From positions 1-35,934 of the forward strand of contig CAJOEW010000006.1 of NCBI GenBank assembly GCA_905233525.1: 35,934 bases of DNA, in the 5' to 3' direction. The DNA is from an uncultured Synergistales bacterium. Its GTDB lineage: Bacteria > Synergistota > Synergistia > Synergistales > Aminobacteriaceae. Under the pieces are notes generated by a model that was given only the letters and a program-made list of their open reading frames with translations, did not search any database and was not told the DNA's origin. This document shows positions 1 to 35,934 of the stretch, piece after piece. The stretch's first letter is position 1. Each line of letters begins with the position of its first letter. Position numbers and translations under genes: made by a program.

Positions 1-23
1 TTTAACTGAGGGAGGAATTATTT

Positions 24-2736: not shown

Positions 2737-2979
2737 AAAAAAATATTCACCTCGTTAAGAATTATATCAGTATAAAAATTTTTCGCTGATTTACTGTAAA
2801 TCTTTCATGCGCTGGAATTTCTGACAATAAAAATATATATTAAACCAACAAAACGCGAATTTTTTAGCGGCTTATTACAAAATTAAAAAACAGTCCTGAT
2901 ATTATAATAATTACTGTCATAAAAAAGCGCGTTATAAATTTTTCATGTGCTTAAATCGTATAAACGGAGGTTGACTTTT
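2737..2979. other. Divergent intergenic region between ugd and the sugar transferase gene
   Basis: About 240 bases, very AT-rich and without a convincing ORF. A minus-strand TATAAT (2761-2766) lies about 25 bases upstream of the ugd ATG and could be its -10 element, but I see no good -35. On the plus side the Shine-Dalgarno GGAGG (2966-2970) of the transferase gene closes the region. Confidence 0.5.
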
Positions 2980-2997
2980 TTGAAGCCCGCATATAAT
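2971..2997 (+). promoter_or_regulatory. Possible promoter overlapping the start of the transferase gene
   Basis: TTGACT (2971-2976) and TATAAT (2992-2997) are separated by 15 bases, a short but usable spacing; a second TATAAT follows at 2998-3003. If used, transcription would begin around 3004, next to the ATG at 3004 and the 7-base repeat, giving an almost leaderless message. This conflicts with use of the GGAGG/TTG start just upstream, so only one reading is likely to be the main one. Confidence 0.3.
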
Positions 2998-4424
2998 TAT
3001 AATATGAAAGCAGAAAGCAGAAAGCAGAAAGCCATAATTTTGCCCAATTAGATTTTAAAAAATTACCATTCGCCGTCATTCAAATAATAGCTGACGTAAT
3101 TTTATATCGGTCATGTTTTTATTTACTGTCAGGTTTTAAAGGTTTTCCTGATAAATCCGGTGTGCTGTTATCCGGAATTTTAGTAATATGTTTTGCATTT
3201 AATTCGCTTTATAATTTTAAGAACCGGACTTTCTGGGACGAAGTTAAAGCCGTTTTACAATCAGCCGTTTTAATTTTGCTCGTGTCAGTCTTGTATTTAT
3301 TCGCTGATAAAATAAAATTGCCGGTGTTTTTGTTTCTTGTTAATTTATTTTTATTCGTGCCGCTTTGTTTAGCAGTCAGATATTTTTTGCGGAGGATCTT
3401 TTTTAAAGCCGGTCTTCTGTCGACTTCGATAATAATAATCGGTGCCGGTGATGCTGGAAAATTATTTGCTGATAAAGTTCATAACAATAAATTCATGGCC
3501 TGTAACGTTTTAGGATTCATTGATGATGACGAATCTAAACACGGTTTAGAAATTTCAGGCGTGAAAGTTTTAGGAGGACTCAATGATCTTGAAAATATTC
3601 AGGCAAATTTACACGCTGATGAAGCAATAATAGCAATACCTACAGCTTTACGCACGGATATAGCAAGGATTTTGAGCCGCGCTGAAGATCTTTTTAAACA
3701 GGTGCATTATATTCCGGATATGTACATGCTCACGACGTTATCAGCCTCAATCAGAAATATTAACGGAATGCCGGTCATCTCAGCTTCACAAGGTCTTTTA
3801 AATCCTGTCAACCGTTGTTTAAAAAGCATAATGGATTATTTTGGCGGAGTTGTTGCTTTAATTTTATTCTCGCCTCTTATGATATTCTCTGCCATAAAAA
3901 TAAAACTTGCTGACGGCTGTAACATATTATTTAAACATAAAAGAATTGGTGAAAATTTAAAGCCGTTCTATTTATACAAATTCCGCACAATGGTTCCTGA
4001 CGCTGAAGAGAAATTAAAAGAGATGCTCAAAAATGATGAACTCAGAAAAGAATTTGAAAGCGCTTTTAAATTCAAAAACGATCCTAGAATTACACCGATC
4101 GGGAAATTTTTACGCCGCACAAGTTTAGATGAGCTGCCGCAGCTTTTTAACGTCTTACGCGGTGAAATGAGTCTTGTCGGGCCGCGTCCAATTGTTGAAA
4201 AGGAGGTTGAATTATATTACGGTCAAACGACTGCACGTCAAATTTTTCACGTTAAACCAGGCTTAACAGGTTTTTGGCAGGTCAGCGGACGCAATGATGT
4301 TAAAGATTACAGATCGCGCATTGAATTTGATTTGTATTATATTCATAATTGGTCAGTGTGGCTTGATATAATCATAATATTGCGGACTATTAAGGCTGTT
4401 TTATCCGGTACAGGCGCGTATTAA
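2980..4424 (+). CDS. Initiating polyprenyl sugar-phosphate transferase (WbaP/ExoY type), out of frame at a 7-base repeat
   Basis: Transfers a sugar-1-phosphate from a nucleotide sugar to undecaprenyl phosphate at the inner membrane, the first step of surface polysaccharide assembly. The body (to 4424) has membrane helices, a Rossmann-like domain (IIIIGAGDAGKLFADK), and the catalytic C-terminal domain with YLYKFRTM, RRTSLDELPQL, SLVGPRP and KPGLTGFWQVSGR. The first ATG/GTG/TTG in the body frame is GTG 3162, which has no Shine-Dalgarno and cuts off a helix. The frame is open back to 3003 and encodes a membrane segment (FAVIQIIADVILY). A GGAGG-9-TTG start at 2980 is in another frame that stops at 3049. 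The repeat at 3006-3032 lies between them: one extra 7-base unit joins both into 483 residues, the usual family length. As given, the gene is off. Confidence 0.85.
3006..3032 (+). repeat. Heptanucleotide tandem repeat (GAAAGCA), 3.9 copies
   Basis: Three perfect 7-base units followed by GAAAGC. Because 7 is not a multiple of 3, each gain or loss of a unit changes the reading frame downstream. It lies nine codons after the TTG start of the sugar transferase gene, a typical place for a slipped-strand phase-variation tract. The copy number here puts the start out of frame with the body. Confidence 0.9.
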
Positions 4425-35738: not shown

Positions 35739-35869
35739 TTTTTCAGCTCCTGATTAAAAATTTTACGAACGTCTGAATTATACAAGCATGTTATAAGCTG
35801 TGCTAGAATATCTCTCATGAAATGCTTAGTACTAAAAATTTTTAAGAACGCGAAAATCTTAAGGAGGTC

Positions 35870-35898
35870 TTGACATGAACGACGAAACCCAGTATAAT
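35870..35898 (+). promoter_or_regulatory. Perfect-consensus promoter at the right edge
   Basis: TTGACA (35870-35875), exactly 17 bases, TATAAT (35893-35898). All twelve consensus bases match, better than any other promoter in the window. The -10 overlaps the first base of the 7-base repeat, so transcription would begin within the repeat, around 35905. An ATG with its own AAGGAGG lies inside this element (35875), so promoter and start codon readings compete. Confidence 0.6.
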
Positions 35899-35934
35899 CG
35901 CACATCGCACATCGCACATCGCCTTAATAATACC
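35875..35934 (+). CDS. 5' end of an unknown gene carrying a 7-base repeat (cut by the window)
   Basis: ATG 35875 follows AAGGAGG (35861-35867) by seven bases and reads MNDETQYNRTSHIAHRLNNT to the window end without a stop. The codons from Asn8 to about His15 are the heptanucleotide repeat. The layout (Shine-Dalgarno, start, about eight codons, repeat) is the same as that of the transferase gene at 2980, so this may be another switched gene. Identity and the frame of the body are not visible. Confidence 0.45.
   Translation, partial: MNDETQYNRTSHIAHRLNNT
35898..35922 (+). repeat. Heptanucleotide tandem repeat (TCGCACA), 3.6 copies
   Basis: Three perfect units and TCGC. Unit length equals that of the repeat at 3006-3032 but the sequence differs, so the two arose separately. 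It begins in codon 8 of the truncated gene, so unit gain or loss would shift the frame downstream. Confidence 0.9.

Follow-up and report, generated by a model that had tools for sequence, protein, structure and literature searches.

The window analysed here, a stretch of 35,934 nucleotides that makes up the whole of contig C6 of a 1.64-Mb, 66-contig MAG (G000) of a rumen Synergistaceae, raises the question of how a sugar transferase gene can be expressed when its reading frame offers no early start codon and the well-placed start upstream lies in another frame, across a heptanucleotide array. On the forward strand, a Shine-Dalgarno sequence GGAGG (positions 2966-2970), whose motif and spacing are repeated in the sister leaders on C5, C9, C10 and C24, is followed at a 9-base spacing by a TTG codon (2980-2982) that is kept in the leader family GGAGGTTGAYTTTTTTG. 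GGAGG-type sites at similar spacing also precede most other TTG-start genes of the window, in agreement with the first-pass annotation. The repeat scan located the proposed switch, 3.9 copies of GAAAGCA, at 3006-3032; its units are 100% identical and it is the highest-scoring array in the window. Translation in the TTG 2980 frame reads LKPAYNYNMKAESRKQKAIILPN and ends at a TAG stop (3049-3051), giving an OFF-state ORF of 23 residues (2980-3051). The body frame, which encodes the initiating sugar transferase, is open from 3003 to 4424 and contains no ATG, GTG or TTG before GTG 3162, where no correctly spaced Shine-Dalgarno sequence was found. An ATG at 3004-3006, without a ribosome site, is an alternative start, and because it shares the TTG 2980 frame the assembled copy is OFF from either codon. 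The first-pass annotation had described this arrangement and called the copy OFF; every coordinate proved right to the base, and the arithmetic agrees with its claim that one additional unit fuses start and body into a protein of 483 residues.

The predicted product of the body frame is an initiating polyprenyl-phosphate sugar-phosphate transferase. The 463 codons 3' of the array are intact and give a full-length, two-domain match to TIGR03025 (EPS_sugtrans; 412.5 bits against a cut-off of 295.55), with Pfam CoA_binding_3 and Bac_transf both matched, and solved WbaP structures (8t53, 30us) match the same body with E about 1e-71, bearing out the WbaP/ExoY-type enzyme that had been recognized by its membrane helix. 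Because the score against the galactose-specific WbaP model TIGR03022 (397.6 bits) lies just under its cut-off of 403, no sugar is assigned to the enzyme. The gene beside the transferase is presumably UDP-glucose dehydrogenase-like, and we take the genes at 26.8-30.2 kb of the window to be rfbACDB-like. The genome also holds an array-less WbaP paralogue (C26:2231-3475) and a shorter transferase on C27, so control of glycan initiation need not rest with the window locus alone. This weakens the earlier proposal that glycan assembly is switched at its first step, when it is read as a statement about all assembly.

To place the window array in its genomic context, we counted perfect tandem arrays across essentially the whole genome, using a period-7 threshold of at least 3 copies (at least 21 bases). 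This yielded 23 perfect period-7 arrays (22 loci, one of them interrupted) against 0.0 expected in first-order Markov controls, and a chance origin was rejected on this comparison. Together with 8-mer (n=6) and 5-mer (n=3) arrays and single arrays of 10-, 11-, 13- and 14-mers, the genome contains about 35 array loci, nearly all before surface-glycan genes. Unit lengths are 5, 7, 8, 10, 11, 13 and 14, with multiples of three absent from the leader arrays; the sole long array with a multiple-of-three unit is a hexamer within a Q/E-rich stretch. At the ends of C5 and C6 and at the starts of C28 and C46, no more than 50 bases separate an array from the contig terminus, indicating that the assembly probably breaks at repeats and that the array count is a lower bound. 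The array at the C6 end is the second one of the window: a Shine-Dalgarno sequence AAGGAGG (35861-35867, forward strand) is followed by a perfect TTGACA-17-TATAAT element (35870-35898) with ATG 35875 inside it and by 3.7 copies of ATCGCAC (35897-35922), and the contig ends 12 bases further 3'. Its leader, repeats and first codons match those of GT8 genes on C9, C46 and C58, and the C58 gene, with an array of equal length, is in frame. Two exact array patterns searched in viral contigs, as an indication of a mobile or phage origin, gave no match.

The genes behind the arrays encode, besides the Bac_transf protein of the window, proteins with Pfam matches to GT8 (n=4), GT2, GT4, DUF4422 (n=3), polysaccharide pyruvyl transferase (PS_pyruv_trans, n=3), MBOAT (n=3) and methyltransferases (n=3), as well as FkbH_N, MaoC, SDR, UbiA, FrhB, DUF2142, DUF6625, a radical SAM protein and DUF2284. 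Three array-led genes gave no Pfam match, one of them encoding a membrane protein that looks O-antigen ligase-like by eye. Judged by these domains, nearly all array-led genes fit a predicted role in surface-glycan synthesis or modification.

Frame analysis of 30 curated loci separated two layouts, with 21 fusion loci, 8 coupled loci and one (C54:5906) that fits either; the leader start is uncertain at the sister loci C25, C53 and C54:5906. In all 30, the leader ORF reads through the array without a stop. In the fusion layout the conserved catalytic body generally starts directly 3' of the array, with no start codon nearby, and 7 of the 21 loci are in frame as assembled (C24, C27, C45, C58, C2:34033, C34:14263 and C3), the proportion predicted by random phase. 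In the coupled layout (C9:95430, C14:12342, C20:12927, C22:51154, C34:1522, C47:123, C50:1401 and C53:148), one leader phase ends between -3 and +11 bases from the start of the next gene at all eight loci, meeting its start codon in ATGA or TAATG overlaps or adjoining it, and the other phases mostly stop 25-80 bases earlier. This layout is probably a translational-coupling switch that would be ON in one phase of three.

The first-pass annotation had proposed that copy number be compared in related genomes, and the genus sample, composed of MAGs of gut Synergistaceae whose hosts are mostly goat, sheep, red deer and reindeer, with one genome per species, allowed this comparison between species. 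Heptamer arrays precede 5 of the 15 WbaP-type orthologues compared, the window gene included, and unit and copy number differ in each of the four other species. GCTCACA x8.3 (L212) and AGCTCAC x4.4 (L214) are in frame (ON), with an ATG reading through the array into the body; ATCGCAC x4.7 (L209) and TCAGGCA x3.7 (L216) are, like the window copy, out of frame (OFF). The remaining 10 orthologues have no array, several of them with ordinary starts, and the presence of an array changed at least three times on well-supported branches of the orthologue tree. Among the matches listed, array-bearing leaders occur in most genus members and none was seen elsewhere in the order. In the 400 kb examined of one relative (G035) we found four 7-mer runs, two of which form one interrupted array, one 5-mer and one 10-mer array, and three hexamers in positions unlike leaders. 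The gene after the transferase was also observed to have its own 5- or 7-mer array in relatives, with units that vary by species (ATCAC at L002:2828, TCATC at L003:2835, ATCGGTT at L004:2881, TCACA at L008:2853 and CCACG at L016:2834).

Several marks of repeat-mediated phase variation are present here, namely an array in the 5' coding region beyond chance, a unit that is not a multiple of three, an upstream start that joins the body in one phase and, between species, a difference in copy number; reversible, high-frequency change of copy number within a population would be a further, predicted mark. The window array is thus very probably a translated contingency locus, one of about 35 that nearly all serve surface-glycan genes in the two layouts described. 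Translation would begin at TTG 2980, or at ATG 3004 in the same frame, and pass through the GAAAGCA units, and in one array phase of three the ribosome would continue into the transferase. Since the unit has 7 bases, each unit gained or lost moves the reading frame, and such changes by slipped-strand events would turn the protein ON or OFF. At the coupled loci, a short leader ORF would instead end over the start codon of the gene in one phase, leading to translational coupling. The on/off switch that had been suggested for the heptamer repeat is, as a prediction, well supported by the different arrays at orthologues and by the about 35 loci of like design. That the repeats slip in living cells, that TTG serves as the start and that the surface glycan is affected are steps that we infer. 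Against the proposed switch count the weakness of TTG 2980 compared to an ATG start, the uncertain leader starts at some sister loci, and the promoter-like element beside the array, whose transcripts would start 3' of both ribosome site and start codon, a feature that the simple model leaves unexplained.

A fixed frameshift in a broken gene, or a miscount of repeats, would also produce an out-of-frame copy, and MAG assembly can indeed miscount repeats, the window contig itself ending just past another array. We nevertheless consider this very improbable, given that about 35 loci show this phase pattern, a third of them in frame, that the body is intact throughout, and that orthologues in other species carry different arrays at the equivalent spot, some of them in frame. 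It is less credible still, to the point of being nearly negligible, that GTG 3162 is the true start and the array irrelevant 5' sequence. That codon is the earliest start of the body frame, but a start there was rejected because it has no ribosome site and would delete the first membrane helix, which is encoded 5' of it and is conserved in the orthologues, including those with ordinary starts.

The remaining alternative arises from the promoter-like element itself (P2). In about half of the arrays, a near-consensus TTGACA-17/18-TATAAT lies between the ribosome site and the array; the genome contains 18 perfect TTGACA-15..19-TATAAT sites, 8 of which have an array directly 3', and a promoter with at most one mismatch occupies this place at 15 of 37 arrays, compared to a null of 0.035% per position. 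These figures, and the coupled-layout genes having their own start 3' of the array, would be expected if the element were a real promoter, transcription started within an untranslated array and copy number tuned output or the 5' UTR. At the transferase locus P2 is weaker, consisting of a -35-like hexamer TTGACT (2971-2976), a 15-base spacer, below the 17/18 of most array loci, and a TATAAT in the -10-like element TATAATTATAAT (2992-3003) directly 5' of the array, and this poor 15-base spacing is shared by the window-type leaders. An untranslated array was rejected for the fusion loci, the window's included, where no start lies between array and conserved domain and such a transcript would be untranslatable. 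Multiples of three are, moreover, avoided among unit lengths. In a pooled genus sample of 33 array promoters and 43 array-less promoters, a ribosome site lies just 5' of the -35 in 31 of the former and one of the latter (Fisher p 8e-18), again at odds with an untranslated array, and we regard this alternative as improbable, if less so than a broken gene.

In the same pooled sample, the array begins 0-1 base 3' of the -10 in 29 of the 33 array promoters, 32 of 33 have a spacer of 17 or 18, and a start codon falls inside the promoter element in 32 of 33 compared to 25 of the 43 array-less promoters. Throughout the genus the -10 abuts the array, and similar sigma70-like matches recur among its members (e.g., L178, L191, L197 and L212); the promoter sites listed from the order's other genera and families are followed by ordinary sequence. 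The translated mRNA cannot simply originate at P2, since transcripts from there would lack the ribosome site and start codon. Extended -10 motifs further 5' may serve as its promoter, such as GTGTTAGAAT and TGATATAAT, which lie 5' of the ribosome site at sister loci, and by analogy with them a weak candidate P1 -10 (TATAAA, 2933-2938, forward strand) can be proposed in the window, from which the mRNA would include the ribosome site. As a hypothesis, polymerase opening at the -10 may promote repeat slippage. Separately, in many genus members the ATG of a conserved gene is found about 8-11 bases 3' of a TATAAT (TATAATCGGCATCATGATTGACAGCG...; e.g., G031:C15:4632 and G003:C105:40864), and the mRNA of this gene is likely leaderless or near-leaderless.

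The leaders are more alike than the genes that they precede. Group C leaders, which start ATGGGTACCAGC and carry 8-, 10- and 11-mer arrays, have a mean identity of 82% over 90 bases, which falls to the random level of about 50% in the 150 bases 3' of their arrays, as the genes there are unrelated. Leaders of group A, which includes the transferase leader of the window, average 65%, when random sequence would give about 50% and the sequence 3' of the array gives about 51%. Homologous leaders before unrelated genes indicate that leaders, or leaders with their arrays, have moved or been copied between genes. As a tentative extension, which we consider rather unlikely to hold in full, P1, ribosome site, -35, start codon, -10 and array might form a portable switch cassette that has come to stand before glycan genes of unrelated kinds throughout the genus, with the abutting promoter-like element as part of the switch either through -10 opening that melts the first repeat and raises slippage, or through transcripts that set OFF-phase expression.

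The 1.64-Mb genome has about 35 predicted repeat switches, and its lineage has been met only in gut metagenomes, mostly those of ruminants. The switches are directly testable in existing rumen reads, and the tight contact of promoter-like element and array makes it possible to ask whether bacterial repeat instability is driven by transcription. Searches of the open-licence literature turned up no account of phase variation in the phylum Synergistota. Among the contingency loci of Haemophilus influenzae, a member of a different phylum, tetranucleotides dominate, and we know of no shared leader there that joins Shine-Dalgarno sequence, promoter and array. The simple-sequence contingency loci of that species (PMC2651432) resemble the present set in that a single genome holds numerous genes under repeat control, many of which serve surface glycans, and in units that are not multiples of three.

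The kind of switch is already known. In neuO of Escherichia coli K1, carried by the CUS-3 prophage, an AAGACTC heptanucleotide varies from 2 to 93 copies (PMC3046976), and the likeness extends to the 7-base units in the 5' coding region, the full-length product in one phase of three, the surface-polysaccharide modifying enzyme and the translated repeats that form a tolerated N-terminal tail (PMC3046976). The array loci include no homologous O-acetyltransferase and no AAGACTC unit, so that they would work alike without being of neuO type, and the single prophage gene contrasts with about 35 chromosomal loci that have many units, shared leaders and an abutting promoter-like element. The window protein would differ from other WbaP/EPS polyprenyl glycosylphosphotransferases (TIGR03025) by its repeat-encoded N-terminal extension. 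The coupled layout resembles the Pil1 leader-peptide switch of Streptococcus gallolyticus, where GCAGA repeats also lie in a short leader ORF 5' of the controlled gene and the ribosome can open a transcription terminator when the leader peptide is longer (PMC3894217), but the in-frame leader here ends over the start codon of the gene, suggesting translational coupling. Relative to these systems, and as far as literature searches reach, what is new is the scale and the host, together with the composite leader that the loci share, the probable coupling layout and the promoter-like element that abuts the array.
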